Assembly: GCA_964017235.1 (NCBI GenBank) | Contig: OZ024936.1 | Span: 46,241,028-46,305,027, forward strand | Direction of reading: 5' to 3' | Source of the DNA: Sabellastarte sp. h YS-2021 | Taxonomy: Eukaryota > Annelida > Polychaeta > Sabellida > Sabellidae | DNA length: 64,000 nucleotides | Shown: positions 1 through 40,218 of the stretch, in pieces | Position numbering within the stretch: the first letter of the stretch is position 1 | Layout of the letters: every line of letters starts with the position of its first letter | Made by a program: the position numbers and the translations under genes | Notes under the pieces: model-generated | Told to the model about the DNA's origin: nothing | The model's database searches: none | The model's input: only the letters and a program-made list of their open reading frames with translations

Positions 1-24
1 ACAGCATCAGTAGAAATAGTAATT

Positions 25-251
25 AGAGTAAGAAATCTGAAATTCGCCACATATCTGAAATTCGCCACATGTCAAAATACTAATAAAATAAATGAATTGT
101 GGTGAGATTTGTTGACTGTATAGTATATTAAGGCTTTTTGAACTGAAAAATACCAATTTTTGCACAAAAACATCATTTTCTTCATAAAATTAACTAAGGT
201 TTTAGAGGTGGCGAATTTTAGATTTCTGGCGAATTTTAGATTTCTTACTCT
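25..251 (-). mobile_element. MITE family 1, copy A
   Basis: It starts AGAGTAAGAAATCTGAAATT and ends AGATTTCTTACTCT. Each end carries a near-duplicate of the motif TCTAAAATTCGCC. The 226-bp body has no coding capacity. Orientation is opposite to the copies at 9941, 13085 and 14267. It lies directly before exon 281, so its right end forms part of that intron's 3' region. Confidence 0.85.
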
Positions 252-280
252 GATAGATGTCCCTGATTTCAAATTTTCAG

Positions 281-1269: not shown

Positions 1270-2078
1270 AACCCCAGCCCAAAAAGGCTGGTTTTATAGT
1301 CGTCCCCTGCACCATCCAGGCGGCATAGGTGGCACCGTGGCAGGCCTAAAGCTTGTGGGTGTTCTGCAGCCTAAAACCATGCACGCATTTTCGACGTAAA
1401 TTTACCCCAAGAGGATCTACAGCTGATTAGGTTTTGTGGGGTATCCAGCAATAACTGTTGCCATGGCAACAGATTTTTGAGTCTTAAATTTGGGGATGTT
1501 CCACAGCCTAAACTCATTGACATAATATTATATTCACCAAATTTTCAGGATATGTTCACCCCAAGAGTGTCTAGAGCTGATAAGAATTTTGTGGGTATCT
1601 GGCAACAACTGTTGCCATAGCAACAGTTTGAATATTTTTGGGTTTCAACATTTGTGGGTGTTCCACAGCCTAAACCAATGCATAGATTTTCACCAAATTT
1701 TTAGAATATGTAAACCAGAATAGGATCCAGAGCTGAGGTTTTGGAGGGTATCTGGCAACATCTGTTGCCATGGCAATGCATTAAATACTTTTGCGGTCAA
1801 AAACTTCAGAATTGAAAAAGGGGCGCTATGAAATGGATGTTACTACAGTAACTGTTGCATTTTTGTCTCACACCGGCCAAGGCTGGTTTTAGGAGATTAT
1901 GAAATGCCTTCTGTGCGCGCGTGCATGCGTGTGTGTGTGCGCATGAATGTGTGCGCCTTTGAATCTTACATTAACTTTTTTTATGGATTCTGTGTACTTC
2001 TTACAACTGAAATTGTTCCTAAGATTTTCCAAGATCTCAATGTTGTTGCCCATTTAGTTGTACCTGTAGGCTGGGGTT
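1270..2078 (+). mobile_element. Tandem-repeat foldback element, family CAGCC ('pearl'-like)
   Basis: It starts AACCCCAGCC and ends GGCTGGGGTT, a perfect 10-bp inverted repeat. The start is itself a hairpin (arm CCAGCC, loop CAAAAA, arm GGCTGG). The body has about three diverged units marked by CAGCCTAAA at about 1367, 1504 and 1666 and by GTTGCCATGGCAAC palindromes. There is no ORF. The architecture resembles Helitron-related pearl elements of oysters (known group, my inference here). Confidence 0.62.
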
Positions 2079-2555
2079 CTTGCCTACCGAGGCTGGCTAT
2101 TTTTTAGTGCTATTATTGCAGGTTTAAATGTTAAACATTTCAATTTATAATAAAACACGGTTTTAATTATGACTAACCTGCTTCATAATTATTAGGTTAT
2201 TTAGCTCTAATATAGTGAGTTAGTGGTTAACCATTAGGAAACAGGGACAGCCAACCACTAAATTAGACGGACCTATTCAGAGTAAATCTAAGGTGTTAAT
2301 TTCATGTCAAGGATTGATTTAAACAGAGTATTAAGCAAGGCAGTGACTTTGTTAGGAAAATGAGACTGTGCATCTCTTTGAAAAAAAGTGATCCAAATTG
2401 AGTAACAGCATTTTAGTAGTACTTGACTTAATCGCAGATCCACATGTGCCCCAGATTTACATATTGCAAACAGTTTTGCAGATCTTGAGGTGCTAGAGAT
2501 TCTTGCAAATACTTGGGTAAATTTTCAAATAAATGTCATATTTTATATATTCATT

Positions 2556-4296
2556 AAGCGTCCCGCAAGGGACGCTTGTTTGTGTATGGGAGACCTTCAA
2601 GCTCCGCCGGCTCCGCATTTTGATTTCCTTATAACTCTGTAACCGTTGGGTGGATTCTATTCAAATTTGGCAGGTTTATGCAGTAGCCTTGGGGATTTCT
2701 TTTGAATATGCTGCAGTGACATTTCAACCAATCAGAGAGGTCACATGACCAAAAATATCTTTTTTTGATGGGGAAGCTTGTCCGGATGATAACTTGAAAG
2801 GGATCTTATCAATTCACCTGAAACTTGGCAAATACATTCATTCTATTAAAATCTGGAAATCATTAGATTTTGGCAGTGATTGGTTAAGAAATGGCTGAGT
2901 AATTAATGATTAATTAATCATTATGAATTTTCCAAATAAGGAAAACACAAAAATGCTTATATCTCGAAAACCGTGCTAGATAGAGCGATTTTGACAAAAT
3001 TTTTGACCCCCAGGGTATCTCTGCAGAGTAGCTATCCCAATTTTGAAAAAAATTTTGTCTCGCCAAAAATGGATATCTCTGCAGAGTAGCCATGCCAATT
3101 TTCAAAAAAATTTTGTCTCGCCAAAAATGGCGGCCATTTTAAATTTTCGAATTTTGCGCAAACATGGCAAAACACAAAAATGCTAATATCTCGAAAACCG
3201 TGCTAGATAGAGCAATTTCGACAACATTTTTGATCTTCAGGGTATCTCTGCAGAGTAGCTATCCCCATTTGCAAAAAAAAATTGTCTCGCCAAAAATGGC
3301 GGCCATTTTGAATTTTTTGCAAAAATTGCAAAACATAAAAATGCTTATATCTCGAAAACCGTGCTAGATAGAGCGTTTTCGTCGAAATTTTTGACCCACA
3401 GGGTATCTCTGCAGAGTAGCCATGCCAAATTTTCAAAAAAAAATTGACTCGCCAAAAGTGGCGGCCATTTTGAATTTTTGAATTTTACGCAAAAATTGCA
3501 AAACACAAAAATGCTAATATCTCGAAAACTGTGCTAGATGGCGAATTATCTCTTAAAAGTATTGCAGATAGCCAATTTTTCTCAAATGAATCATTCACCT
3601 ACTTTTGGAAGAGCTTTCACATGGTGAAGTTTCAGACCATAGCTAATTACTCACCTACTCAAAATGAGTAAATGCGAATTATCTCTAAAAGTATTGCACA
3701 TAATTCTAATTCTAATAGCACTTTTATAGCGCTTAATCTCCGTCAAAAGACAGACTCTAAGGCGCATCACACAAAAACATTGTTCAATATTCAAAAACCA
3801 ATATCTCTTAAAAGTATTGCATATAGCCAATTTTTCTCAAATAACTCATTCACCTACGTTTGGAAGAGCTTTCACACATGAAAATGAAAAATTGTGAATA
3901 TCTCGGAAAAGCTATTTCTTCTCCTTTAATGCTCGGTGGGAGATACACACTGTGGCAGTGGTCTTGTTTTCAAAAATTTTTGTCTCACCAAAATGGTGGC
4001 GATTTTGAATTTTAGAAGTTTTTGCAAAACACAAAAATGTTTAGATCTCGAATTCAACAAAATTTTTGACCTGCTGGATATGTCTGCAGAGTAGCCATGC
4101 CAATTTTCAAAATATTTTTGTCTCGCCAAATATAGCGGCCATTTTAAATTGCAAAGCACAAAAATGCATATATCTTGAAAACCGTGCTAGATAGAGCAGA
4201 CTGCGCTGACTTTGGTTGCCACAACAGTATAAGGCTAGGAATGGAGCATTTTCTTAATACTTTAGCACTCACCTTTATATCCTTTTCGGGACGCTT
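2556..4296 (+). mobile_element. Tandem-repeat foldback element, family GCGTCCCG ('pearl'-like)
   Basis: It starts AAGCGTCCCG and ends CGGGACGCTT, a perfect 10-bp inverted repeat. The start folds into a hairpin with arms AAGCGTCCC and GGGACGCTT and loop GCAA. The body holds units of about 160-170 bp marked by ATATCTCGAAAACCGTGCTA (about 2959, 3186, 3347, 3517) and ATGGCGGCCATTTT, with further degenerate copies at about 4020-4190. A foreign AT-rich segment at about 3670-3880 interrupts the array. There is no ORF. Confidence 0.66.
3690..3800. repeat. Dispersed repeat piece with CTCCGTCAAAAGACAGA motif
   Basis: It contains GCACTTTTATAGCGCTTAAT and CCGTCAAAAGACAGACTCT. The complementary pattern (AGATTCTGTCTTTTGATGGA then GGTTAAGTGCCATAAAAG) occurs at about 49840-49890, and a shorter one occurs at about 18897-18930. 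It is shared dispersed repeat sequence of unknown class. Confidence 0.5.
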
Positions 4297-4578
4297 TGTT
4301 TTTGCTATGCAAAAACATTATCTTTTTTTTTGCGAGCGATCCTCTAGTTAATTTATAGATAGAATGCTTCACATTGGTAACGTTTTTGGTTGTGATTCTA
4401 AAGATATTAAAAACTATAATGATCATGTAAAATCCCATAAGGTAATGTATATATTAAGAAAACAATTTACTGGTTCAGCATTGGTGTGAGTTATTGCTTA
4501 GGTAACCTAATAATCGGTTAGTACGATTAATTGCTTCAGCCTTACAAATAAATATCTTTTAAGATTAATATTTTTGTC

Positions 4579-5059
4579 CTTTCGCTACTGAAGGAACATT
4601 ATTCCATGGGGCTGTAGCTACATGACGTCATATCACGTCAGAAACGCCAATGAAGTAAAATAATATCTCACTACCTTATGCACTTTATTTGCGGTATTTT
4701 TCGGTATATTTCATCAGGAATTGATGAAAGTCGAATGGGAAAATTCGTGGGAATTCCCCAAATAAAAATAACCACGAGTACACAATATGCAGTTATATGC
4801 CTTAAATATGGCAATATTTACAGAAAGCAGTTAAAATAGGTGAAATGGTGAATTTTTCTATAAAATATAGCATAACTTTCATTTAAAATACTTAAAAAGT
4901 CAGTTTAATACTGATACACCAAACAAAACATATAACAGTACACTGAAGGGAAAGAAGAAATATATATTATTGCCCCCTGTCCCCTGTAATTATTGCCCCC
5001 TGTTCCCTGTAATACACATTGATGTCGACTGCTAGTTGACACACATGGTAGCGAAAGGG
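4579..5059. mobile_element. Possible piggyBac-type MITE
   Basis: The left end CCTTTCGCTACTG and right end GGTAGCGAAAGGG are inverted, and TTAA follows the right end (5060-5063). TTAA targets and ends beginning CCCTTT are typical of piggyBac-derived MITEs. The left TTAA is not preserved, so the class is tentative. Confidence 0.45.
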
Positions 5060-5396
5060 TTAAACAATTTAGAATAACCATGGCTACATAATAGGAGTCA
5101 GTAAATCACTTTCTTTGTAAGTTTTCACTGAATTGCTGGTTCCCAGAGCTAATATAAACCAACTTTTCGTCTCTCAAAGGACTGGTTGTTTAAGTATAAC
5201 TTTACTCGTAATGGAGGCCCAATATTTGCTCTTCAAACAAAGATTTATTGGAAATGAGATACTGTATAACCTGAAATTTTCACAAGGCATTGATATTAGC
5301 TATTTGAGTAAGTGAGGATACATACTGAAAATAAATTCCTAGTGAAATTTTAAATCACTTATTCCTGCTGTTCCATTTTTGCAAGTTATTGTAAGG

Positions 5397-5430
5397 TGGG
5401 GCGGGGTGGGCGGTGGTGGTGGGGGTGGGG
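5397..5430 (+). other. G-rich tract, possible G-quadruplex
   Basis: GGGG, GGGG, GGG, GGGGG and GGGG runs occur within 34 bases in an otherwise AT-rich intron. It could fold as a quadruplex in the sense transcript; one loop would be about 10 nt or use GG runs. Confidence 0.5.
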
Positions 5431-6767
5431 TTGAAAAGATTAGCCTTATGATGTGCTTCCCAAGCCAATGACTTAAAATAAAGATAACCCATAAAAATAA
5501 GCCCCGACCACTCTAGCAGCAGTAATTTAAGGAATTCCTAAGATTAGTATACAAAGTCTTAATCTCAATTGTTAATTAAAAATGTCAGTTGTGACAGTAG
5601 TGTAAATGGTAGACTGGTATACTGTATTTAATTAGATAAGGAAAGTCAAGTCATTTTGGGGCAGTCGGGAGGTAGATTCCTGGCAATGGAACAGGGGTAT
5701 AAGATTTGAAAATCAGTGGAAATTTCTTCCAGCTAAAATATGAGCTTGTACAGTATTTTGAGTCCTTTTTTCGGGAAAATAAAGTGTGTGTTTGTGTGTG
5801 TGTGTGATTTTCCCTGTGATCTTGTGTGTGGTTTACTATTATAATTCAAGTGCTTGAATGTGTGGAATTTATTAATAATGTATCAAATATCAAGATAATA
5901 AAGTGTGGAAACAGGTTTTTGTCATTTTATATTTAAGAAAAGATAATTACTTGTCATAAGATATACAATAAGATGTGTAAAATTTGCCACTGTAGTTTGA
6001 AATTTCACCTTTGGAACACCCATTAAAGTAAAGAAACAATAAGTAAATGTCAAGAAAATTTGCGTTATATTAGATAAATTACCTTAAATAATACCAAAAA
6101 TGATAAATGTATTAGGAATGTCCCAGAATTGAAAGAAAAGTAAAGGAATTTCCATGGTGATAAGGCACAAGTGTTGTGGCAAATTTGCCATTTCTTACTC
6201 GGCATGCTCAAAGGTTTGGTGATTTTCGATTCCAGTCACATGGGAATTATACACTTACTGTTATTGAATGTCCGCTATTATAAGTGTTCATAATATTGGA
6301 ACAGATGAAATCAGATTCCTACTTTACCTCCAGATAAATGGGTCAATTATGTATAGTAAAATACTTCTGCATATGTGCATTCACCGAGATGTGTAATAAT
6401 TTTAAAACTTTGGATTTTTTTTGTTCATTTATTTGTTTGTTCAACTACATCACCTTGGCAACCAGTGGGGCTCTGGATTACCCAAAACTCTGGGCCAGAA
6501 ATAAGTCCAGGAAAGACCTTTGAGCATGAGACAGTTCCAGTGACCCCCTCCAGTGATCTTACATGCTACAAACAAAACATAAACTTTTTCTGATGGATCC
6601 TTTCCTGTTTCTAGCTCTAAAAAGCTTTCCAAAGTCCATCAGAGCATCTGAAAACTTGGATGACTTCAAGCCCAAAATGAAAATTTATATACTTGCTAAG
6701 TACAAGTCAAATGAGTTAGTAAAATGCGTATTTCGGATGTCATTAATATATCTAAATTGTTCTGTTA

Positions 6768-6870
6768 TTAGAAATAATTTGCAATTATCAACCATACAAA
6801 TTTGAATTTTTTTTCACTAACAAAGCTTAACACCAGTTCATCACAGTGTAAATCTGTTGCCAAGTCACTT
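6768..6870 (+). repeat. Dispersed repeat, copy 1
   Basis: AATTTGCAATTATCAACCAT, followed by CAGTTCATCACAGTGTAAAT and CTGTTGCCAA, matches 11138-11240 in the same order. No terminal repeats are seen. Confidence 0.5.
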
Positions 6871-8024
6871 AAAAGTGTGAATTACAGATAGAAGTGCAAA
6901 AGTGGTTTAACATTTAGGAAAATATTTTTCAATTAAAATTTCGGTATTAAATGAAGAAGAAAACCAGGTATGTCACAGCAGTTCAACTTTTTTATGAATC
7001 ATGCAATCATTGTAAAATGATTTACAATAAGCCATCTAACTCTGCTTGTGAACACAATTTATAACATGAGGTCACTATTTTGGTTGTAACAGAAACAGTA
7101 GTTTCCATAAATTGACCCAGTATGTCAACAACAAGACACATGTTCACGTTCCCAGAGTGCGTCCCACTCAACATTCAGTCATTTGTAAATACCCAAGCAT
7201 TAGATTTCTACTTCAGGAAAACATTTAGCCCCCAGGGTGATACAGAATAATTGGTCTCTAGTGTTTCACCTATTTTAACCTCAAAGTCACTTTGCTATGT
7301 TAAGTCCGGTACATATTTTAAAGTGAAATTTGGTATTTTAATTAAGAGTTTTGTATACTTTGAAGTGTATCAGCATTATCTATTTTAATGCAGTAATTGT
7401 AGATGTTAACTGTTCACTTAGTTAGGTTTAGTTCAAAGTAATTTCTTACTACATGCAGTTTTTTTGAAGAAGAAGAAGAACGTTGGATACTATTACAGCT
7501 TCACGTTGTGTATCTTTGTATTTGTTACTCAAAATTTGGATTATCATGAATATATGAAACATTGCCTGATTTCAAATAAACACCTTAATTGTAATTTTTA
7601 TTATTATTTAATTTTTTTTTTCCAAAAAAGTGCCTGATAAAAAATTAGGCTAGAACAAGTTGTTTTTTTTTTCAGGATAAAATATCAGACACTTTATTCC
7701 TGATTTTCATGCAAAAGTTACATTTTAAAACAGCTTGTTTCAAGGCAATTTTTTTTTTTTTATGAAAGTTTTTCTAGAATGGTGAATATTAAATAAGGCC
7801 GTGGATTGACATTTGTGTTTATCATCCACACTGTTTTCTTCATTGATACTTTAGTTGGTTACGACTAAAATGTGCACTTGGTTACACAGATATGGGTCGG
7901 TTCCTTGTAAACTTTTACTGAGTCTCATATCTCTTCCTAAGTCACAGCAATAAATATTTATAAAGGCAAATACAAATACCAAAGTACTCATTAAAATACA
8001 GTCCTATAGTTCAAATAAACTTCA

Positions 8025-8297
8025 GGGCCCAGTTTCACAAAGGCCTACTATCTCCTTAGTAGGCTGCTAAGTGCTAGTAGTCTACTAAGCCTGTACTATC
8101 TGCTTCACTGAGATAATTCTTTACTGTGGTAAATAGTAGGCTGTCCTCACTAGAAGCCCTGCTATCTCTGGAACTTGATAGATCCCAAATATCAGCTCAG
8201 TGGAACACTTTTGTAGTGGCTACTAAGGGCCTACTAAGATCTAGATTCAATAGCATACTTTCTTCTATATTGAGTAGACCCTTGTGAAACTGGGCCC
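8025..8297. mobile_element. MITE with GGGCCCAGTTTCACAA ends
   Basis: The left end GGGCCCAGTTTCACAA and right end TTGTGAAACTGGGCCC are a perfect 16-bp inverted repeat around 240 bp of non-coding DNA rich in CTACTAAG/CTTAGTAG motifs. No clear target duplication is visible. Confidence 0.8.
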
Positions 8298-9940
8298 AGG
8301 TTTACTAGATATTGAAAATAATTAATGCCCAGGCCATAATATATGGGAAGAATACGGTATAAATAGTATAGTATTCTTTGTCAATTCTTCTACACTAATT
8401 TTCCTCTTCATTAGTGTTGCATAATATATTTCTCTAAAGAGAATTCTTTAACCACAACAAATATGTGCATTGGAAATACAGTGTTTGACTCAATGATCTC
8501 TGAGCACTTTAGCTTGGGAAGACTCACAACTGCTATTAACTATTATTATTATTATTATCCCTTTTATGTTCATAATCTTCTAGCCCAAGTAATTATTTAA
8601 GATATCTCCTGTATCTATTATGTATATAAATAACATTTGTGTAAATTCTTCTCATTTATAATTAATATGACATACCACTCGCACTGTGTCTTGAAAGTGA
8701 TTGCATTTGTTTTAACATTTTGCCAGATAAGACTCTCAACCAGCCTGATATAAATTTTAATTTGGGTAAATTGTATGTGTCCAGTTCTATCTAAATTTGT
8801 CCTGCAGTGGGTAGGTTTCAAAGAGCTGGTAAAAAATGCATGGTTTAGCTGTCTATAAAATGGGGGTCAGAGATCTGAGTTGTTATTATTATTCTGCCTG
8901 AATTCATTAGAGATCAGAAACACAGTTTTATGTATTGCTTGAGCAGAATTTTACTAAGTAAAAATGGTTGCATTTTACAAGAAAAGTATGAAAAAATTGT
9001 TGAAACTCTATTTTTGTGACTTGCTGACTATATTATTCCTATCTCCTGCAACTTGAATTGAAGGAAGGCCCAGGTTGTATAACAAGAGCGTAACAAAATT
9101 CAAATCAAAGTTTCTATCAAGTTTGGCTTGGTAGAAACTCCAATTGGGCTTTCAACCAAATTTAGCTTAAATTGGAGTTTCTGCCATGACATATACAGTA
9201 AAAAATCATCAGTGTGAAAAATTTATTTACATGTTAGTAACATTATTTCATTTTTAAAAAGTTATTTGAAGTGAACAGATTGTGGAAATTTTAAATTGAA
9301 ACCCCAAACATAGAAGATAAATAATACAACAATGCAGGTACATAACGTACCAGGTCAAAACAACTGGTTCAAAACAATACAAAGTCCTCGTGTCTTCAAA
9401 GACCAACCAGCCACTCTCAAATACTGAAAGTTACATAGTAGTAATTACTCATATTTACTCTTTACAAGCCCAATATTACACATCCCAGCAGCTTTAAATC
9501 TGTAATCCAAGAATTATCTCAAAGGGTGTGATTAGACCTGTAGGGTCCAGACTCCCAGACAATTTATCAACATGACAGTAATAGTCATGTAGTTAACTCC
9601 CCATAAGCGGGAACCAGATGAAGCACTTTGTCGCTTTAAGTAGCCTTGTCTTGTATGCAGAGATGTATGTATCAGGTGCTAAAGAAAACTATTGAGTTTA
9701 ATTCTCATGCATTTATTTATTTTTTTTTTTTTTTTGCAGCTGAGTTTATACGAAATCAAACAATATTGGTTCTGGAAAATTTAACTGGTAACAACGCCAA
9801 ATTTACCTTATGGCATTTACTGAAACAGTTTTTGTGTCCCAGTTTCTAACCCCTTTTCCATTTGAGAAAGTTGACCATGTGTTACAACGCATGTGATTCA
9901 TCAATGATTACCTTCTTCAGTGGTGGGTTCTACTATGTAT
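8298..9940. other. Intron sequence, little seen
   Basis: AT-rich intron with the hairpins at 9111-9182, an ATT run at about 8542 and poly-T before 9737. No exon, RNA gene or transposon ends were found. Confidence 0.5.
9111..9139. repeat. Short hairpin
   Basis: The arms GTTTCTATCAAG and CTTGGTAGAAAC surround the loop TTTGG. A second imperfect foldback (AACTCCAATT / AAATTGGAGTTT) follows immediately, to about 9182. Confidence 0.6.
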
Positions 9941-10165
9941 AGTAAGAAATCTAAAATTCGCCAGGAATCTAAAATTCGCCACCTCTAAAACCTTAGTTAA
10001 TTTTATGAAGAAAATGATGTTTTTGTCTAAAAATTGGTATTTTTCAGTTTAAAAAGCCTTAATTTACTATACAGTCAACAAATCTCACCACAATTCATTT
10101 ATTTTATTAGTATTTTCACATGTGGCGAATTTCAGATAAGTGGCGAATTTTAGATTTCTTACTCT
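9941..10165 (+). mobile_element. MITE family 1, copy B
   Basis: It begins AGTAAGAAATCTAAAATTCG and ends TTAGATTTCTTACTCT, with the TCTAAAATTCGCC motif twice at the left end. It is very similar to copy D at 14267 across its whole length. Confidence 0.88.
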
Positions 10166-10256
10166 AATTACTCTGTAACTAGACAATCTTACCCAACAGA
10201 TGGGACCAAAACATTGTGAAGTATGAAGACAATCACAACTGTTAGCAATACCAGTA

Positions 10257-10491
10257 CTGCCTTGCTACCAATTGTCGCCGGGTACCAATTATCGCCAGAT
10301 AGAATTCAAATAGATATAACTTCACCAAAAGTAGCATCCCAAGTCTCGTAAATAAGGTACAACTATTTCCAAAGTGAATGGAACAGATACACAACAGAAA
10401 GCTTTCAAAATATGTGACCATTACTGAAATATGAATGTTTTATTTTCTGGTGGCGATAATTGGTAGCCGGCGATAATTGGTAGCAAGGCAG
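10257..10491. mobile_element. MITE with ~41-bp inverted ends and TA target duplication
   Basis: The left end starts CTGCCTTGCTACCAATTGTC and the right end is its inverse, ending TTGGTAGCAAGGCAG. TA flanks both sides (10255-10256 and 10492-10493). Each end contains two direct copies of CTACCAATTRTCGCC. A TA target suggests a Tc1/mariner-mobilised MITE (inference). No ORF is present. Confidence 0.88.
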
Positions 10492-10493
10492 TA

Positions 10494-11944
10494 GTGAACC
10501 AGTGTTCTGCTATTCATTCTATTTTCACAGAAAATATGAAAACTGGAAAGAATATTTAAGAACCAGTCATTGAAAACGTCACATCTTGAATGGCTGATAT
10601 TTCAACAAAACAATAAACAAAAACCCATAAATTTGGTTTTAATAGCTCATATTTTTATTTTATATTGGGTAAGAATTGAATTTATGAACTATAACGTGGT
10701 TGTGAAGAAATTTCCAGTTTTAAATAGTATCTCATTTTCATTTGCGGTTGATATTTAAATATTGACATAAATCTCTTCACTTAAATTAACTATGTGGCAT
10801 TTACCATCTATATGTTACAATGTTTTCTTTGCATCACATGTGGCAAATTGACTTTAAATATAGTATTTAACCTCTCTGACTTGACTGAGGCTTTAGCCAG
10901 CGAATTCTACTTACTAAGTTCCCCTTAAAGGGCTTTGGCCATAATATAGATCTATGATTCCTTACTTTCAGTTTCAAGATTATATGTAATTCGTAAAGTA
11001 TATTATTAGTGTGGTATTCAAAAACTATGTCACAAATTCTCAGCAGATTTATGTTGTAAGAGATTTTATATTTCATTCTAAAGTCTAATTATGGGACTCG
11101 TGATACTATTGAAAGCAGCATAGTGTCTAACATGTGAGAAATAATTTGCAATTATCAACCATATAAATGAGATTTCTCCTATGTTTCCCTAACAACCTTG
11201 ATATCAGTTCTTTACATTGTAATCTATTGCCAATTTACCTGTGTGAACTCCAAGAAAATGACCATGAAATTGCCAACTGCAATAAATTTACTATGAAGTG
11301 TTTTGACACTGTCTACATCGTAGGTGTTTGAAGATTTATTGTGCCAACCCATTATTATATTTTCTGTTGTATATTTTTGTAACAATATTCTAATTTCTAA
11401 GGTATGTTGCAATGGAAGAAAGTTTCTTATATTTTGGCAAACATGACCTGACTACATTCGAAATACAACCTCTGTTACCTCCTTCAGTCAAAAGCTCAAA
11501 ACTTTCTGGTAACTGTCTGCAAAGGCTTAATTCCACTGTAAGCCACCTTGCCTCTGTGTGTCTTCTCTGGTATGTTCTGGCTGTGTTAATGGACCAACTG
11601 TTAACTCACTATGTTTATGTATAGCTGCAATTTGGAGTCAGGCACATGATGGAGCTCAAGCACTATACATGTACATGTCCTTATTATATAAAATGGTTTG
11701 ATTAGATGAAAGATCCCTGAATATGAGACATTAGTTTAATCTACTTGGCCAGTACATGTTGCATAATCAATGGATAATTTTGCAAAATATTGCAAATATT
11801 TAACAACTGTAAGATTTAGAAAAATGTTTGTAAGATTTATGAACATTATACATGTAGTCGAAACAGGGGAGTTAATGGAACTTAAATTGTAGGCAGTTGA
11901 ATATGGTATTTCTAGACAATCAAATTATAATATGGATGAAGTAT
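10494..11944. other. Intron sequence, little seen
   Basis: AT-rich intron with dispersed repeat copy 2. The short ORFs here have no family resemblance and no splice-compatible context. Confidence 0.45.
11138..11240 (+). repeat. Dispersed repeat, copy 2
   Basis: AATTTGCAATTATCAACCAT, then CAGTTCTTTACATTGTAAT and CTATTGCCAA, parallels 6768-6870. Confidence 0.5.
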
Positions 11945-12150
11945 AAAGGTGGCATAATTTTAAAGAATGTGGCATGATATTTAACAAAAATTCTATTAAA
12001 TGGCATGATTTTTTTTAAAAAAAAAAGTGGCACAGTTTAAAAAAAAATAAATGAAGTATTATTTTTTTTTGTTATTTGGCATGAATTTACAAAACCTGCC
12101 ATGATATGTTAAAAAGTGGCATGATTTAAGAATAAAAGTGGTACATATTT
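11945..12150 (+). repeat. Degenerate tandem repeat of GTGGCATGATTTTAA type
   Basis: Variants of (G)TGGCATGATTTAA recur about every 20-45 bases between poly-A and poly-T runs. It ends about 120 bp before the exon at 12269. Confidence 0.6.
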
Positions 12151-12268
12151 TCCAAAGTTGATTGTTTAAATTGCTCTCTCAGTCTTTCTACCATGAGAAG
12201 GCTGCTTCATGATATTGTGATTCTTTGAGTCAAATGTTTTGTTTATTTCTGAGTTTCTTATTTATCAG

Positions 12269-12366
12269 GAGAAGACCACCTGTCAAGAGACATGACGGGG
12301 TGTTCCATGCAAAACCCACCAGACATAGCCGCAGTCCGGGTACAGGTCATGTAGATTACGACAAAG
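12269..12366 (+). CDS. IQ-motif gene, basic Pro/His exon
   Basis: The acceptor is TTTATCAG and the donor AAAG|GTAAGC. The exon is 98 nt: one base completes a Gln codon, 32 codons follow, and one base is left over. It reads RRPPVKRHDGVFHAKP, then TRHSRSPGTGHVDYDK. The composition is basic with an RSP motif that could be phosphorylated. No domain is recognised. It fits between the exons at 281 and 13377 only in this frame, which supports both neighbours. Confidence 0.8.
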
Positions 12367-13084
12367 GTAAGCATTTGTGGTACTGAATTGTGTTTTCATT
12401 ATTGTTTTCAAACATCAATTTAGCTTTCCAAAATTTTCTAAGTACAGGAATTTTTGCCACAAAGGTTTCATGCTTTGCTTATTACCAGCCCCATTTACAG
12501 TAGGTGGTAATTTTCAGTGGATACTAAATGTTGAGAATTTCAAAACAGCCAAAACTCTTTTGGAGTTTCAAGGAGTACTATGTTAAGTAATATTGACCAG
12601 CAAAAGAATAATATAAAGCAAATAATAATAATGGCTGGATCATCGTTATTTTACAATAATAGTGAGTCATTGACCTAGAAAATTTAAAATCACTCTCAGC
12701 ACTTCTCTAGATAACTTTTCAGGCATTCTGCAGCAAAGTTATATAATTGTTATTTCAGTTTGGTTGGGGGTGTAAAAAAGTTCTTCTTTGAAGTTGTTAT
12801 TTATTTATTTAACAATTTATTATTCAACAGTTATGTTATAGTACAGCAATTCCACATACCGGTATAATTGTATTCCAATATCACTTTTAGAATGCTCATT
12901 AAAGTCTCTATTTCAATTTTCTACTCAATGTCAATATTAAATACAGTATGCACAGTAAACAACAGATACAAACAACTTAACATGTGTTTAAAACCTAAAC
13001 AGAATTCAAATGCCAAAAAGAGTAACTTATAAAATATGACCTAAGGAATTTCTTATGTTTACATTTTCCTGTTGATGGTCATTT

Positions 13085-13310
13085 AGAGCAAGAAATCTAA
13101 AATTCGCCAGAAATCTAAAATTCACCACCTCTAAAATCTTTGTTAATTCCATGAAGAAATTGATGCTTTGTTTTAAACTTTGTATTGAAGTTCAAAAAGG
13201 CCTGATTTACTCTACATTCAACAAATCTCAGTCCTCAATTCATTATTTTTATTAGTATTTCCACATGTGGCGAATTTCAGATATGTGTCGAATTTTAGAT
13301 TTCTTACTCT
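13085..13310 (+). mobile_element. MITE family 1, copy C
   Basis: It has the same ends (AGAGCAAGAAATCTAAAATT ... TTTAGATTTCTTACTCT) and the same body with more substitutions than copies B and D. It ends 66 bp before the exon at 13377, so it almost touches that exon's branch-point region. Confidence 0.86.
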
Positions 13311-13376
13311 ACCACACTATAACATTGTCATTAATGTTTTTCATCCTTTTGCTTTGACTTTGATATTTGCCCACAG

Positions 13377-13501
13377 ATGATGGAGGCATTTTCAAGGCTA
13401 AGGGCAAGAATAAGGAGACTCAGGGCGCACGGGAAGTAGACGATACACGCGACACACAAGTTGACCTGCCTATTGACCAGGTTGAGGCTGAGGAGGTCAA
13501 G
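13377..13501 (+). CDS. IQ-motif gene, acidic exon before the alternative junction
   Basis: The acceptor is TTTGCCCACAG and the donor AAG|GTCAGT. It starts with two bases of an Asp codon and ends in phase 0. It encodes DGGIFKAKGKNKETQGAREV followed by an acidic run ending QVEAEEVK. The phase-0 end is important because both the stop-carrying exon at 20749 and the exon at 26687 start in phase 0. This exon can therefore splice to either without changing frame. Confidence 0.8.
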
Positions 13502-14266
13502 GTCAGTGATAGAGTGTGATCTTGAAAAAAATTAAGTCAGTGGGATAAAGTGATATTGGGAAAAAAAACAGCTGATTCAAGGCTTAAGTAATCTAGATTG
13601 TAGAACAACCATTTGTCTGATACTGGGTAAATCACTGGTAGTGAAAATATCCTTGAGTGAAAGCTAAGTAAATGTAGGTGTGAACTACATAAAGTTACCT
13701 TGCCTTGAAATACTAGGTCAAGATCAGTGGTATAGAGTATAGATGACTGACCTTGTGATGTGAAGAATTGAGGTCAGTGGGATAAAGAAGCCTTTTGTAG
13801 ATTTTATGATGGGATAGGAGACCTTCATATAGATTATTATTGAGAGATGGAACAGTTTCATTAATAAGTGAACTTGTTTTAAAACTTCATCAGATTAATA
13901 GCCATCTCTGTTATTATATTCTCTTTTATATCATCGGGGACTATTAAGAAGTATGCTTTAAAGCAGTAATAATTTTACAAGGAGAAAATTAGATGAGTTT
14001 TCATTATTAGTAAATCTCAAATAATACCACTTGTGTATACAGTCACATTTGACGAGAAGGTTATAGTTCATTAACTACTTCTGCATTGATTCTGCATCCT
14101 TGCTGTTATTTTGATAATTCTCTCCAATTACTGTGTTCTGTGTAAGAATTACAAGGTGCCCCCCTTTTTTTCCAACAAAAACCTCAGAAAAAAAAAACCA
14201 AACAAAAAAGGCAAATAATAAACATACCTGTGTATATGTTACAGGCAATCTGTGTAACCAGGCATT

Positions 14267-14493
14267 AGAGTAAGAAATCTAAAATTCGCCAGGAATTTAA
14301 AATTCGCCACCTCTAAAACCTTAGTTAATTTTATGAAGAAAATGATTATTTTGTCTAAAAATTGGTATTTTTCAGTTCAAAAAGCCTTAATTTACTATAC
14401 AGTCAACAAATCTCACCACAATTCATTTATTTTATTAGTATTTTCACATGTGGCGAATTTCAGATATGTGGCGAATTTTAGATTTCTTACTCT
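14267..14493 (+). mobile_element. MITE family 1, copy D
   Basis: It is an intact copy with ends AGAGTAAGAAATCTAAAATT and TTTAGATTTCTTACTCT. It is nearly identical to copy B, which suggests recent spread. Confidence 0.88.
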
Positions 14494-15856
14494 ACACACT
14501 AAACCCTTTTGCTATTGTGAAGCCACTCAATTTATTGATGCAGGGTTGCCAGCCTATTCTGTCTGATTAGGCAGTTATTGTATTCTTTGCCCAGGTATAG
14601 CATCTCCGTAAAATAGGTGTGACTTAAGGGCAATGGGCATTTAATGCATTTATGTCCCCCTGCTAATAAGCCCATTAGCGTTTGTGTGATGGGTAGAAAG
14701 GTCATTAAGACGGAATGTGTTGTTAAGGGGGAAAATTTTCATTCCGGAATAAATATCCTATTAAATCACCTTTGGCATATTTATAATATTATGTTAGCAA
14801 GGATCAACATTACCCAAACCTCTGCTGAGGTATTTCATATTATCTGTAAAATCCTGGCTTTAGGCTTTAAACAGCATTCACTTGTGGGGTGGGGGGTAGA
14901 CTGTCTATCATTAGTACCAGTAAGTAACTGAGCCATAGAAACTAAGTGAAACTAAGCTGGTGAGGCCCAAACATCATGTATTGTTTTTGTTTTAAGTTTT
15001 CAAAAAAAAAAATTTGGTTTCTTTGAATAACTGAAAACTGGTTACTGGGTGGTTTTAAAAAAAATCTAAAAATTAAAAAGATCTTCAAAAATTAAAACAA
15101 AGCAGATGGCTTCATCATCCTGGTTAATCTATGTAATAACTTCTGCTGAAAAAAAGTGATAAGCGAGTTGAAATATTATGATAATTCATTAATTAGCTAG
15201 TCTTTCAGTACTTTTAACGATATTTTAAACTTGGCAAAAAAAAAAAAAAACAGACAAAAACTTTTTGCCTATTATTTTATAATCAGATAAACCAATTTTG
15301 CATTTGCTGCTGTTGAAAATACTACATGACTGTCATGTTGTTACACAGGTGCCTCTGGTTTACAACCAGTGTACGTCCAGCTGAATCAAATTAAAACAGC
15401 TACAATGATTTAATTTGTGCTAGTACAGAAGTTAAGCACTATAAAAATAAAATTTGAGTAGAATATTGGTTTGTACACAATGCTATTTAGTGTCAAGGTG
15501 ATGGTAAACTTCTTACGGTGCCACAGTTTTGTTCATCCTCTCATCAGATCTAGTGCAAGGTCCTTACTTAGTGCACAATGATTTCTGTAAGAATATTTCC
15601 CTCCAGTGAGAGTGTAAAAATCCTAGCTTAAAATGCACTCATTCATTGTCTCCAAACTCCATGAAGTAAAGACTTGTGAGCAAGTCTGTTCTTTCATAAA
15701 TTATGGCAACAGTTCAGTCACAGGTTGTGAATAGAAAATGATTTTATGGGTTGCCTTTGTCGTAAAACCCAATAATTGGTTATAAACTTTTAAAGGCAAT
15801 TGTATCTCCGTAGTAAATATAAATTATTATACATTTTTCTTTCCCACTTAAATACA
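14494..15856. other. Intron sequence, little seen
   Basis: AT-rich, with poly-A tracts at about 15000 and 15236. A 95-codon ORF at 14644-14931 has no family resemblance and is taken as chance. Confidence 0.45.
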
Positions 15857-16072
15857 GGGACTCCATGATGTAGTTGGTAACACACCTCCCACCTCTAAGA
15901 TCAATGGTTCAAACTCTAGATTCTATGTTCCTTACCAATGACCAGCAGTGTACAGAATCTTGACCAGCTAGTATGTACTGGTTGCCTCTTCCCTTAAATC
16001 TCTCCATCATAATGTAGCTTGTACAATGTGTTGAAAGCGACGTTAAACCCAAATAAATCAAATTCACACTTT
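15857..16072 (+). mobile_element. tRNA-headed SINE with GCGACGTTAAA tail
   Basis: An A-box-like TGATGTAGTTGGTAACA and a B-box-like ATGGTTCAAACTCTA about 40 bp later mark a tRNA-derived RNA polymerase III head. The tail contains TGTTGAAAGCGACGTTAAA and an A-rich end. The same tail ends the copy at 41691. SINEs with this tail are common in bivalve genomes. Confidence 0.75.
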
Positions 16073-16892
16073 AAATTTAATTTTTAAATTTTATTGAAGG
16101 TCCTAAAAGGCTAGCTATCTGTAAATAAATACCACATTATTTTAATCATAAAAACTGATGAAGCTGCTTTATATGTCATTTTTGAAGAGGTTTTAAATAC
16201 ATTTTGTAGAGTACTGAAAATTAAAACTAACAGCATCTTTAAATTCCATTATAATGACATGGTATTGACTATTGAGGATATCAGGGCTGGAAAATTGGTT
16301 TGGTAGAATGTAGCTAAGTATCTAGCTATTCAGTGCATTAGCCTAGCAAAAGAATGGGTAAAAAGTCATAGTCAAGGGACATACTAGGTCAATTATCCAG
16401 GGTATGAAAGAGGGAAAATACTGGATGGGGAAACTTGATTTGAAGATGAGGCTCAAGATTTATCGTAAGCGATGATACTGAGGAACTCACTGGTTGTTAC
16501 ATGAAGAGGGAGGGAGTTTCATAGTGTTGGTACATAATAGGGGGATGAGTTGGTGAAACCGGTATCTTGGTGTCCAGACCATTTCACTAAATTACTATAA
16601 TGACACCTTGCAACTGCCGTATTGAGTCTATTGACTGTGAGCATGGTCATGTAATTGTGGGGAAGCTTAAAATATTACAAACTAATTGTACATCTGAAAC
16701 AGTCATACCAATTTGTTCAGCATTTTTACCCCACAGCCCTTAAGGGCTGTCGGGGTATTGTTTTCACCCATGGTGTCCGGATGGGCGGGCGAGCGGCGGG
16801 AAAAGGTTTGTCCGGGCTTGTATCTCAGAAACCGTAAGGTGTAGGAAGTTGATTCTTGGTAGGGACATTGGTTAGGGGGTGTAGGTGTACAA

Positions 16893-18880
16893 CGTCATGG
16901 TGTGACCTTGATTTGAACTTTGACCTTGCCGCAGTGACCTTGAGTTTGAAAATCTTGTCCGGGCTATATCTCGGAAACCGTAAGGTGTAGGAAGTTGATA
17001 CTTGGTAGGGACATTGGATAGGGGGTGTAGGTGTGGTACGTCATGGTGTGACCTTGATTTGACCTTTGACCTTACCGTAGTGACCTTGACCAATAAAATC
17101 TTGTCCAGGCTATATCTCGGAAACTGTAAGGTGTAAGAAGTTGATACTTGGTAGGGACATTGGCTGGTTGTTGTAGGTGTGCAACGTCATGATGTGACCT
17201 TGATTTGACCTTTGACCTTGCCGTAGAGACCTTGACCAATAAAATATTGTCCGGGCTATATCTCGGAAGCTGTAAGGTGTAAGAAGTTGATACTTGGTAG
17301 GGACATTGGTTGGGGGTTGTAGGTGTGCAACGTCATGATGTGACCTTGATTTGACCTTTGACCTTGCCATAGAGACCTTGACCTATAAAATCTTGTCCGG
17401 GCTATATTTCGGGAACTGCAAGGTGTAGGAAGTTGATACTTGGTAGGGACATTGGTTTGGGGGTGTAAGTGTGCACTGTCATGGTGTGACCTTGATTTGA
17501 CCTTTGACCTTGCTGTAGTGACCTTGACCTTTAAAATTTTGTCCAGACAATATCTCTGAAACCGTAAAGTGTAGGAAGCTGATAGTTGGTAGAGGCATTA
17601 GCTAGGGGATGTAGGTGTGCATCATAATTTTTACCCCACAGCCCTTAATGGCTGTTGGGGTATTGTTTTCACCCATGGTGTCCGGATGGTCGGGCGGGCG
17701 GGCGGCGGGAAATAGTTTGTCCGGGCTGTATCTCAGAAACCGTAAGGTGTAGGAAGTTGATACTTGGTAGGGACATTGGTTAGGGGGTGTAGGTGTGCAA
17801 CGTCATGGTCTGACCTTGATTTGACCTTTGACCTTGCCGTAGTGACCTTGAGTTTGAAAATCTTGTCTGGGCTATATCTCGGAAACTGTAAGGTGTAGGA
17901 AGTTGATACTTGGTAGGGACATTGGTTAGGGGGTGTAGTTGTGCAACGTCATAGTCTGACCTTGATTTGATCTTTGACCTTGCCGTAGTGACCTTGACCT
18001 ATAAAATCTTGTCCGGGCTATATCTCGGAAACCGTAAGGTGTAGGAAGTTGATACTTGGTAGGAATATTGGTTAGGGGGTGTAGGTGTGCAACGTCATGG
18101 TCTGACCTTGATTTGACCTTTGACCTTGCCGTAGTGACCTTGACCTATAAAATGTTGTCCGGGCTATATCTCGGAAACTGTAAGGCTTGGGAAGTTGATA
18201 TTTGGTAGGGACATTGGTTAGGGGGTGTAGGTGTGCAACGTCATGGTCTGACCTTGATTTGACCTTTAACCTTGCCATAGTGACCTTGACCTATAAAATG
18301 TTGTCCGGGCTATATCTCAGAAACCGTAAGGTGTAGGAAGTTGATACGTGGTACGGATATTGGTTAGGGGGTGTAGGTGTGCAACGTCATGGTGTGACCT
18401 TGATTTGACCTGTGACCTTGCAGTAGTGGCCTTGACCTATAAAATGTTGTCTGGGCTATATCTCAGAAACCGTAAGGAGTAGGAAGTTGATACTTGGTAG
18501 GGATATTGATTAGGGGGTGTAGGTGTGCAACGTCATGGTCTGACCTTGATTTGACCTTTAACCTTGCTGTAGTGACCTTGACCTATAAAATATTGTCCGG
18601 GCTTTATCTCGGAAACTGTTAGGTGCAGGAAGTTGATATTTGGTAGAGACATTGGCTAGGGGGTGTAGGTGTGCAGCATCATGGTGTGACCTTGATTTGA
18701 CCTTTGACCTTGCCATAGTGACCTTGACCTATAAAATCGTCAGGGCTGTATCTCGGAAACCGTAAGGTGTAGGAAGTTGATACTTGGTAGGGACATTGTT
18801 ATTGGCTATAGGTGTGTATTATCATGGTGTGACCTTAATTTGACCTTTTACCTTGCCGTAGTGACCTTGACCTTTAAAAT
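16893..18880 (+). promoter_or_regulatory. Array of nuclear-receptor half-sites in the 146-bp units
   Basis: Each unit contains TGACCTTGATTTGACC then TTTGACCTTGCC and TGACCTTGACCT. Read on the other strand these are five AGGTCA half-sites in one direction with gaps of 5, 1, 8 and 0 bases. The pair with a gap of 1 is a perfect DR1 (AGGTCAAAGGTCA), and TCAAGGTCA matches the ERR/FTZ-F1 monomer site. About 13 units give roughly 60 half-sites. Binding is a prediction; the motifs are seen directly. Confidence 0.5.
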
Positions 18881-19344
18881 CTTGTTGCACCTTTGGGTCT
18901 GTCTTTTGATGCAGATTAAGCAAAAGTCATATTAGAATTTATTAAGAATTTTACTTTCATAACTTCCCATTGTAAGAGATAGAATTTCATCAAGTGAGCC
19001 GCAGATTTTACTCCAACACCACACATAAGCATTCATTAAATGTATTACCACTTCTGTATGCATGGTAATATTCAAACCATCTAAACCATAATTCGGAAAT
19101 GCAGATGTATATAAAGAGTGTTGAATTTTAGTTTACTGATTAATGCTGTCATCTTGTCATTGAATTATCTTCTTTTAATACTTCATCTTTATACGCATTA
19201 TCTTTCTTTTAAACATTATTTCTCCATTTAAACATTGTTTGGACCTTTATATAACTGACAGTGCTCTGAAAGTATCCTGAAGTTTGTACTGGTACAGTAC
19301 TTCTATATCTCATGGTGTTGAAAATATTTCCCAAGGCTGTGGGG
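17634..19344 (+). mobile_element. Tandem-repeat foldback element, family CCCCACAGCC, nested inner copy
   Basis: The hairpin head (CCCCACAGCCC, TTAA, TGGCTGTTGGGG), about eight 146-bp units (marker at 17801, 17947, and so on at exact 146-base spacing) and a 220-bp unique tail end in GGCTGTGGGG (19335-19344), the inverse of the start. It lies inside the outer copy: outer units precede it and the outer copy's tail follows it. Confidence 0.8.
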
Positions 19345-19590
19345 TACGGGCATCTCTGATGCTATTTTTAGTTTTCTGATTAATGCTGTCATCTTGCTAT
19401 TGAATTGTCTTGTTTTAATACTTTATCTTTACATACATTTTCCTTCTCTTAGATGTTAATTATTTTCTCTACTTAAACATCATTTTGACCTTAATGTAAC
19501 TGACACTGCTCTGAAAGTATCCCGATCTTTGTACTGTTTCACTACTTCTATATCTCATGGTGTTGAAAACTATTTCCCCAGCCTGTGGGG

Positions 19591-20748
19591 TATGGACATC
19601 TCTGATGACTGATGCTATTTTTGTAAATTCTAATACTTCTGTAACATATTTCTTTGAGCAGGACTGCAATGTATTTTCATAAATTTGATTGGGGATATGA
19701 ATACGGTAGAACTAACCTTTTTATGTATCCCAGAATCAGAACAGTTTTGCATTGACCTGATATCGAAATGGAAAATTGCTACCCACTCATTCCCAGTACT
19801 TAATTTGCAGTAGTTCTTTTAGAAATTATATTGTGCTTTACTAGCGATTCTTTTGTACCATTTTTGTGATTTTTTCTTCTTCTAACTATGTGGAAGCAAT
19901 TTTTTTTTGTGCTTTTCGCCTTTTACTAACTATCAACTGTGTTGCTTTATAGTTAATTACTTGTATAGTTTGCTAACCATGCACCCAATTGAACTTTGAT
20001 ACATATTTTACTTGCATATTTCTACTTGCATATGGCTATGTATTAGTATAGTTTTCACTTTGCTTTGATGTATTACTTTTCTGATAGTATTAGTAATCAG
20101 ATTCCTCTATTTTCCATGTTTTTACTACAAATTTAATTTAAAAAAAAAGGATTTTTGGTTCAGTCTGCTCATTGTGTTCAACCTTTTTTGAAATAATAGT
20201 GTTAAATTGTTAATATTTAGTGGCTTACTGGAGCATGATCTTATTTGGGGCAAGATAGGTAGAAACTAGAAACCAAAACTTTGTGAGTTTTGACACTGAT
20301 GCAAGCAGTGCAAAGACATGAATTCAGGCTGTTGGTAAGAGAAATGTGGATGAGACAGTAATGTGTCTGTATTCAGTGTGAAAACCATGGCACTCGAATA
20401 CTTAAATGAAATGTTGCATCTCAACTCACAGCACCTAAAGTGGTGGGAAAACATGAAATATTGAAACATAAAATATGAGGAAATGCTTTTTCAGGTTGCC
20501 AAGATTGTTATGGTAACAATGCATGGAAAATAGAGGGTTGAAGTAGCTCTTTAATATCTTGTAAATTCTTATTAACAATTTGTTTTCATATAATTTCTTC
20601 TTTATACTCATTTGTTTATCAACCTGTCTTTTTTTCTTTCTTTCTTTTTTTGCACTCCCTCTGGCTTTCCATCACTGTCACAATATAACTAACTCCCTCC
20701 ACTCTCTTATGAATAACATGCAAAAATAACACCAATCCACAAAATCAG
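19591..20748. other. Intron sequence before the large exon, little seen
   Basis: AT-rich DNA with poly-T and TTTC runs at about 20630. No transposon ends or extra exons were found. Confidence 0.45.
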
Positions 20749-38721: not shown

Positions 38722-38839
38722 TATGGGCCAATCCTATTTCCTTAAGTTAAAGGACATTCAGACCTGTAACTCTAGAATGATACTGAGAGAATATTAACCA
38801 GATTAGGACCGGGGGAAGATCTTTATTTTGTACAGACTG

Positions 38840-39771: not shown

Positions 39772-39794
39772 AACAAGGAACCTTCATTTATCTT

Positions 39795-40020
39795 AGAGTA
39801 AGAAATGTAAAATTTGCCACATATGTGAAATGTGCCACATGTGGAAACACTTATCAAATAATGAATTGAGGTGAGATTTGTTTTATGTATAGTAAATTAA
39901 GGTTTTTGAACTGAAAAATACCAAGTTTAAGACAAAAAATCTTTTTTTCATAAAAATGTTAATTAAGGTTTTTATATTTGGCAAAATTTAGATTTCTGTC
40001 GAATTTTAGATTCCTTACTG
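39795..40020 (-). mobile_element. MITE family 1, copy E (diverged)
   Basis: It begins AGAGTAAGAAATGTAAAATT and ends TTTTAGATTCCTTACTG. It keeps the doubled GCCACAT-type motifs but has more changes and short deletions than copies B and D, so it is an older copy in the reverse orientation. Confidence 0.78.
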
Positions 40021-40218
40021 TACATATTTTCCATGAAATGTAAACCCGTTTGCACCAAACTGATGCCATCCATTACACTCAGGTATGAGCCTTCATTAAA
40101 CTGAAAGAAAACAATGAAAAACAAATTTTTAATTTGTTCCATAATCATCAAAGTTCTAATCATTTTAGCTGGTCATGCAGCCCTGTTGTATGCCTACCAA
40201 TCTGGAGAATTCTTCAAG

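Follow-up and report, generated by a model that had tools for sequence, protein, structure and literature searches.

Three repeat elements of the annelid Sabellastarte sp. h YS-2021, here called A, B, and C, are very probably HINEs, that is, non-autonomous Helentrons, rolling-circle transposons that depend in trans on the Rep-helicase(-endonuclease) protein of autonomous Helentrons. All three lie on the forward strand of the window, the whole stretch of 64,000 nucleotides that was analyzed. Genome copies reveal their anatomy and true boundaries, insertion at T-runs without further duplication, and recent amplification of C. A helicase-endonuclease Helentron, with Rep at some of its places, has its 3′ end in common with a fourth HINE family, E. 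The layout of A, B, and C agrees with that of published HINEs in PMC4067079 and PMC7492417. A sequence-only reading of this DNA had already guessed at HINE relatives, and the anatomy supports that guess. The same reading offered the rule of a head arm, its inverse, and a distant third arm as new, whereas these papers already describe a 5′ subterminal inverted repeat (subTIR) with an adjacent inverse and a matching 3′ subTIR.

Anatomy of the elements

Each of the three elements reads as a head arm, its adjacent inverse, a repeat body, and a matching inverted third arm. Element A, entire to its T-run, spans positions 1270–2105 and was delimited with genome copies (78 matches at 40 scored places) and a tail alignment of eight loci. 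In the sequence and its copies, the head (1270–1291) consists of the 5′ arm AACCCCAGCC at 1270–1279 and the inverse GGCTGG at 1286–1291, and the third arm, GGCTGGGGTT, lies at 2069–2078. A weak 4-bp palindrome, GCCT-ACCG-AGGC (2082–2093), and then the terminus GGCTATTTTT follow and are mostly kept in copies. The body unit of ∼155 bp is weak. Conservation extends ∼25 bp past the third arm, with an arm-to-end distance of 24–25 nt in all six elements.

Element B (2556–4349, up to its terminus CTCTAGTT) was defined by matches (125 at 40 scored places), boundaries, and its head pattern. The head hairpin, AAGCGTCCC-GCAA-GGGACGCTT at 2556–2577, has arms AAGCGTCCCG (2556–2565) and the inverse GGGACGCTT (2569–2577), and its exact pattern is fitted at 7,019 places genome-wide. 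Among these heads, 639 carry the loop TTGC, the reverse complement of the commonest loop among the fetched heads, and such inversions likely had several independent origins. Downstream are a microsatellite-like GCTCCGCCG stretch (2601–2616), longer in some other copies, and a tandem body of ∼161-bp and diverged units (2942–4197; unit lengths ∼161 and 133 bp). The third arm CGGGACGCTT (4287–4296) and the palindrome GTTTTTGC-TAT-GCAAAAAC (4298–4316) are likewise seen in the sequence and in copies. Element B is conserved for ∼53 bp past the third arm and ends in CTAGTT with no T-run. The distance from arm to CTAG is 50–52 nt in six of nine elements; in the other three the arm is damaged or not in place.

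The coordinates that the sequence-only reading gave for element C hide a nested pair. A young C (17632 to ∼19369) splits an older C copy into a 5′ part (16727–17631) and a 3′ part with a second tail (∼19370–19622). The head hairpin of the young element (17632–17655) pairs TACCCCACAGCC at 17632–17643 with GGCTGT at 17650–17655, and its exact pattern is fitted at 10,416 places genome-wide. It is followed by a microsatellite beginning CGGGCGGGC (17691–17709), whose length differs among copies, by eight tandem units of 146 bp (17717–18885), and by the third arm GGCTGTGGGGTA (19335–19346). The 29 aligned tails then show the palindrome GCATC-TCT-GATGC (19350–19362) and a TATTTT terminus. Among the 40 scored places, the 39 others are 95–99% identical over nearly the full query. 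The mean pairwise identity of 29 elements is 97.6%, which indicates that C was recently active. Some C copies start with CTAGTT, which looks like a re-used target; a separate lineage of such copies was rejected, since L040, L045, and L060 do not group together exclusively in a tree (support values unchecked).

The shared plan can be compared across families with different arms. In A, B, C, and E, the 5′ end is soon followed by a 5′ subTIR and its adjoining inverse; in A, B, and C, a 3′ subTIR that matches the head lies some way inside the 3′ end. The palindrome beyond it measures 8 bp in B, 5 bp in C, and 4 bp in A, and is formed in E only with a bulge; the A and E palindromes count against the class assignment. 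All four families carry a microsatellite downstream of the head, central tandem repeats, or both; these are weak in A. That one plan recurs with different arms held up, and a common rolling-circle (Helentron) mechanism is its likeliest cause.

The window was also scanned for 10-mers that have an inverted 7-mer close by and an inverted 10-mer farther away. This yielded eight cases, whereas 20 first-order Markov resamplings gave 1.45 on average. Elements B and C account for three of the eight (C counts twice, once for each tail), and the other five are not such elements. With an inner stem of just 6 bp, A escaped the scan and rests on its genome copies. The phrase said to be common to two of the bodies is indeed present, as ATATCTCGAAAACCGT in B and ATATCTCGGAAACCGT in C. 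Its motif, TAWCTC, occurs in six of eight satellite-unit families (mean of 1.34 in single-base shuffles), a lead only, given that the motif was chosen after it had been sighted.

Whether head and tail arms co-vary had been posed as a check. Between families the arms do match, in four of four, whereas within families no co-variation appeared: among 44 elements, 24 positions had changed on one arm only and none on both. One-sided changes of this kind are what decay of already inserted copies would produce. Head and tail arms remain complementary throughout in 26 of 29 C, three of nine B, and two of six A elements.

Boundaries and insertion sites

The third arm had been taken as the end of each element, and boundaries lying elsewhere had been named as evidence against that view. 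On the 3′ side the boundaries do lie elsewhere, with copies of A, B, and C conserved ∼22–53 bp beyond the arm. For C, conservation after the third arm is at least 0.97 to position 22, then 0.79 at 23 and 0.55 at 24 (29 tails). The arm-to-end distance is 23 nt after an 11-nt arm, equal to 22 nt after the full arm, in 29 of 29 elements, a uniformity that is partly by construction because ends were placed by match to a typed tail. The C boundary itself comes from the drop in conservation among copies, apart from that placement.

These boundaries bear on whether the elements are cut-and-paste MITEs, bounded by short terminal inverted repeats and containing tandem repeats. Every element does have a 10–12-bp inverted pair near its ends, and excerpts of PMC4067079 and PMC7492417 note that elements of similar look were once classed as MITEs. 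However, the 3′ arm lies ∼22–53 bp inside the true end and the boundaries are asymmetric, empty sites lack any duplication other than T or TT, and the E tail is common to a helicase-endonuclease element. A DDE transposon would terminate in inverted repeats and have a fixed target-site duplication around it; neither was found. We therefore consider this reading very unlikely.

Insertion between A and T had been proposed, but the empty sites show T-runs instead, and both they and the left and right flanks reveal no duplication beyond ambiguous T's. Paralogous empty sites were recognized by BLAST for two C elements (L046, L052), two B elements (L019, L033), and one A element (L004). These are the five used among 13 elements with matches that span the joint; the remainder were too diverged, too repetitive, or had an empty copy with different T's. 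Because the target is a T-run, one or two T's are ambiguous, which leaves room for a duplication of T or TT.

The left flank of C has exactly five T's in 25 of 30 copies, a pattern that the simple no-duplication reading does not alone explain and that counts against it, and the right flank has at least four T's in 29 of 29. A TTTT duplication is thus formally possible for C, as if a Crypton-like recombinase had inserted circles at a T-run common to circle and target and left TTTT on both sides. In contrast, the left flank reads TAGTT or TTGTT in four of 30 C copies that still retain ATTTT on the right, the ends of B and E are CTAGTT and CTTGTT rather than T-runs, and the E tail is that of a Helentron. 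The chance that such a recombinase is at work is very slight.

Spread of satellite arrays through replication slippage or segmental duplication, with incidental hairpins, is extremely improbable: tandem duplication does happen, as with the 492-bp duplication across the left junction in L058, but both ends are fixed, flanks differ between copies, and paralogous empty sites exist. Boundaries and empty sites also rule out a canonical Helitron (Helitron1, with 5′-TC, 3′-CTRR, and insertion between A and T). Heads begin with AACCCC, AAGCG, ACCCC, or AGGYGG, none with TC, and A and C end in TATTTT; the CTAG before T in B would alone fit CTRR.

Family E and a Helentron with a similar 3′ end

Complementarity of head and tail also held in family E, a tandem-repeat HINE for which the tail was known before the head. 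The tail was seen in L069, L055, L059, and L068; heads read afterwards carried the complement of the tail arm in three of three loci, one of them damaged. The E head pattern is present at 2,141 places genome-wide, compared with none for the pattern read backwards. The element has a fixed end, CTTGTT, with no T-run; one search, whose query ended at the E boundary, was uninformative on that boundary.

The last ∼185 bp of E, third arm included, are 86–88% identical to the 3′ end of the helicase-endonuclease Helentron. This Helentron matches 40 scored places, mostly at 99–100% identity, and so a Helentron relative is recently active in the genome. Of 39 other places, 21 have the 3′ end of the Helentron precisely at L069:1318, and 35 have it within 1318–1332. 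There are 65 PIF1 matches genome-wide, 10 of them within frames of 823 aa. An endonuclease-like domain lies 0.85 kb downstream of one PIF1, in phase, with the stretch between unread; the endonuclease match of the Helentron (E = 3.7e-5) scores 24.0 bits, 0.5 bit under the Pfam cut-off of 24.5. Rep (PF14214), with 24 matches listed genome-wide, is found upstream of the Helentron at four of 40 places, at one of which Rep and PIF1 occupy a single frame of 2245 aa. Rep, PIF1 helicase, and apurinic-type endonuclease together make up the Helentron at L069 and its copies, with Rep at those four places only.

Since the identity is only 86–88%, the helper of E at present may be something other than the sampled coding copies. 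A Helentron with Rep and with a 5′ head complementary to GCAACCCGCC, if present, would complete the E link. Autonomous elements bearing the arms of A, B, or C were not found, and the link through terminal sequence holds for E only. Both B and the Helentron have GAYCCTCTWGT at their ends, which is only suggestive.

Related systems, mechanism, and significance

PMC7492417 describes Cg_HINE of the Pacific oyster with a 5′ subTIR and adjacent complementary inverted repeat, a microsatellite, a satellite-like array, a 3′ subTIR, a palindrome, and a T-rich target without target-site duplication, all as seen here. Its GTCC-type microsatellite is found also in E; the likeness is one of layout, with arms not compared letter by letter. 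That study could not tie Cg_HINE to an autonomous Helentron, whereas E has a 3′ end in common with one. The bivalve pearl element, there said to have been classed first as a MITE and later as a non-autonomous Helentron, likewise has tandem central repeats, a likeness of description rather than of compared sequences. HINE-Mo, DINE-1, and their Helentrons, as portrayed in parts of PMC4067079, similarly have palindromic subTIRs or a subTIR plus inverted repeat, a 5′ subTIR near the end, a 3′ subTIR set in, a 3′ stem-loop, a TT target, variable end T's, and an endonuclease-bearing Helentron partner. In the mite families of those parts, the 3′ subTIR lies 38–60 bp from the end, compared with ∼22–25 bp in A and C. 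The Fusarium elements FoHeli1/2, of Helitron2 type, also have a 5′ hairpin arm that recurs inverted near the 3′ end (ATTTT, versus TATTTT in A and C), but in the excerpts of PMC5148889 they are autonomous fungal elements with no endonuclease described, whereas A–C are non-autonomous.

If A, B, and C are HINEs, the head palindrome and matching third arm would be the 5′ and 3′ subTIRs, the palindrome just 3′ of the third arm would be the 3′ hairpin, and the tandem units would be satellite-like central repeats carried along. Rep would nick at these ends, movement would proceed through rolling-circle replication, and a Helentron with fitting ends would mobilize all three elements. The first arm can pair in two ways, locally in the head hairpin or with the tail, since the tail arm and the inner head arm are identical in sequence. 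It is conceivable, though unlikely, that the arms form a switch in which exchange from the inner head arm to the tail signals a full copy and joins the ends for Rep. If so, the B loop inversion would be the trace of a hairpin opened and re-copied during transposition.

The plan was already published, and no classification is changed by these data. What is new is the head counts, the recent activity of C, the fourth family E, and the 3′ link between E and a Helentron. The genome holds nearly 20,000 head hairpins of three HINE families, and a Helentron with many copies at 99–100% identity is a useful addition. Moreover, a tandem-repeat HINE is tied to a Helentron, a kind of link that the oyster study (PMC7492417) could not make. 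With abundant heads, a near-identical Helentron, and the E link, the role of the arms is testable in a system that has moved recently.

Plan and boundaries of elements A, B and C

The arms of three HINE-type (non-autonomous Helentron) elements were read directly from the sequence. In element A, the first arm lies at 1270-1279, its inverse at 1286-1291 and the third arm at 2069-2078. The corresponding positions are 2556-2565, 2569-2577 and 4287-4296 in B, and 17632-17643, 17650-17655 and 19335-19346 in C. The plan proposed in the sequence-only reading (a head made of an arm and its inverse, a tandem body and a third inverted arm) is therefore present in all three. This plan is over-represented in the window, with eight cases, whereas 20 first-order Markov resamplings averaged 1.45. 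Just three of the eight cases are B and C (C is counted twice, for its two tails), and A is missed because its inner stem is only 6 bp.

Genome copies are stronger evidence for the plan than the window scan. The genome searched comprises 1.786 Gb in 647 contigs, with the window at G000:C14:46241028-46305027. For each of A, B and C, matches were found at 40 or more places; these are floors, given that scoring covered 40 candidates each. With exact arms, the head pattern of B fits 7,019 places and that of C 10,416, and neither pattern is found when read backwards. At 37841-38735 of the window, a C-related element retains repeats and its third arm but lacks a head hairpin and a 3' palindrome. The motif TAWCTC (part of TATATCTCGRAAACCGT), chosen only after being seen in the units, occurs in six of eight otherwise different satellite unit families (L015, L028, L037, L040, L055 and L060, all stretches fetched from this genome), versus a mean of 1.34 in shuffles.

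The genome copies bear out the first arm as the head boundary. The claim that the third arm ends the element did not hold, since conservation continues past it through a palindrome (8 bp in B, 5 bp in C and 4 bp in A). Among 29 C tails, positions 1-22 past the arm are each conserved at 0.97 or more (CGGGCATCTCTGATGCTATTTT), and the next two fall to 0.79 and 0.55. Conservation in A tails from eight loci extends through CTTGCCTnCCGAGGCTGGCTATTTT, with scattered changes. In B it extends through GTTTTTGCTATGCAAAAAC to CTCTAGTT in ten rows; these include the window itself (L009) and two loci that are each represented by two rows. The arm and palindrome are missing from L016 and partly missing from L019.

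The rule of an arm, its inverse and a third inverted arm had been put forward as new. It is already in print, because the plan is described in three papers. DINE-1/HINEs are reported to have 13-bp subTIRs, an inverted repeat whose 5' side nests in the 5' subTIR, central repeats and a 3' stem-loop, as well as a preference for TT and terminal T's that vary; mite families have 3' subTIRs 38-60 bp from the end (PMC4067079). The same plan is given for 11 oyster elements with arrays of 13 clusters, to which that study could relate no autonomous element (PMC7492417). FoHeli1 and 2 are described with hairpin ends and an inverted third copy (PMC5148889).

Insertion sites and age

Exactly five T's precede the C head in 25 of 30 copies; four others have TAGTT or TTGTT, and one has six T's. 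Empty sites were sought by joining the flanks of elements and comparing them with other fetched sequence, which makes these sites paralogous. Clear examples were obtained for C at L046 (TTTTT/CTAC) and L052 (ATTTTT/CATTTTCC), for B at L019 (TTATTATT/GGTCC, within a diverged repeat) and L033, and for A at L004. The last lies inside a 230-bp repeat with inverted ends (GAGTAAGAAATCTGAAATTCGCCAC...) that is found five times in the window (22-254, 9938-10168, 13083-13311, 14264-14494 and 39793-40022; 79-97% identical). Eight other elements with joined-flank rows were set aside as too diverged, too repetitive or differing in the T count of the empty copy. Filled sites carry one or two more T's than empty sites and no longer duplication. 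These extra T's can be part of the element or a T/TT duplication.

Families also use each other's ends as targets: in L022 a C copy has B at its 3' end, and in L040 a B copy has C at its 3' end. In L050 and L060, another palindromic head (ATCTCCCGCC...GGAGGGAGAT) starts immediately at the T-run that ends C. In L058 (1009 and 1501), a 492-bp tandem duplication extends across the left junction of one C copy and takes in the flanking sequence.

The mean identity of 29 C elements is 97.6% (95.8-99.2), and therefore C spread recently. In the window, a young C (17632 to ~19369) interrupts the body of an older one (16727-17631 plus ~19370-19622), and this nesting accounts for the two heads and two tails in this stretch.

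Arm co-variation and loop inversion

Head and tail arms co-vary between families but not within them. In a comparison of arms entered by hand, the modal arm of the head in A, B and C is complementary to that of the tail at 10 of 10 positions, as is the commonest listed head of E, a fourth HINE family from other loci, to the E tail; pairings across families match at only 1-5 of 10. Within families, a survey of 44 elements revealed 24 changes, each confined to a single arm, with no position altered in both; fully complementary pairs number 26 of 29 in C, 3 of 9 in B and 2 of 6 in A. Thus, arms co-differ between families and not in decaying copies.

The head loop of B occurs in two orientations. 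Among 19 fetched heads fitting a regular expression, 15 have GCAA or a near form, and four (L017, L019, L027 and L035) have the reverse complement, TTGC or TTGT. Genome-wide, a count made for the TTGC form alone found it in 639 of the 7,019 B heads fitting the arms. An inverted loop was also seen in one of 32 C heads matched in fetched loci (L068). A tree of these 19 B heads, which was poorly resolved, requires three changes for the flips, and 1,000 label shuffles gave four changes in 799, three in 181 and two in 20. Recurrent inversion of the B loop is likely but not proven. Copying errors inside palindromes, without transposition, would explain such flips.

Family E and the link to a Helentron

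Searches of the genome yielded 24 matches to the Rep domain (PF14214) and 65 to PIF1 helicase, ten of the latter in frames of 823 amino acids. L069, a 2.8-kb stretch downstream of one PIF1 match, starts with a reading frame that is in phase with that helicase across a gap of 0.85 kb. This frame matches an endonuclease-like domain (PF03372; E 3.7e-5, 24.0 bits with a cut-off of 24.5). Positions 1-1318 of L069 recur whole or in part at no fewer than 39 places beyond the query at 96-100% identity, mostly 99-100%. The matches stop exactly at 1318 in 21 of 39 and within 1318-1332 in 35; the remaining four end at 713, 1299, 1388 and 1388. A Rep match lies upstream at four of 40 scored places, at one of which a 2245-amino-acid frame contains both Rep and PIF1. 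The Rep search gave no match at the other 36, some of which are fragments. Judged by sequence, L069 and its copies are an endonuclease-bearing Helentron family because of the PIF1 helicase, the endonuclease-like domain, the common 3' end and the Rep upstream at some places. A Rep-less helicase-endonuclease derivative may have been amplified.

About 185 bp downstream in L069 recur in L055 and L059 (86-88% identical), and ~150 bp of this tail also in L068, with the end GCAACCCGCCTTTTGGGGCA..GACCCTCTTGT. In L055 this tail comes at the end of an array of 157-bp units, and related repeats precede it in L059. Family E is thus a HINE with the same end as the Helentron. Its tail predicted a head complementary to GCAACCCGCC, and such a head was present upstream of all three arrays then fetched (TTTTTAGGTGGGTTGC..CCAACCCGCC in two, with one T for C of the exact complement, and damaged in the third). 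A GTCC-type microsatellite follows these heads. The commonest head among 94 matches listed, TTAGGCGGGTTGC-GTGTAAC-CAACCCGCC, is the exact complement. The head pattern, drawn up after three heads had been seen, occurs at 2,141 places and at none when read backwards. A shortened Helentron copy (C1:31521057-31522444, minus strand) has an E-type head ~1.2 kb upstream. On the same contig, the 100 listed E heads include 10 clusters of two or three, spaced 729-825 bp from one another, which would fit elements arranged in tandem.

The most likely explanation for these data is that A, B, C and E move in trans by Helentron Rep-helicase rolling-circle transposition. The data show the ends, the target, the recency of C and the end that E has in common with a coding element, whereas nicking by Rep and the rolling circle are inferred. 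The common mechanism claimed earlier finds support for E in the end shared with a coding Helentron; for A, B and C we infer a helper. The ends of A and C are alike (GCTATTTT), and that of B (GATCCTCTAGTT) resembles the Helentron end GACCCTCTTGT, which suggests that two types of helper may operate. Relative to the open-licence papers compared, and with no claim of absence elsewhere, what this genome adds is the link from E to a Helentron and the recency of that link.
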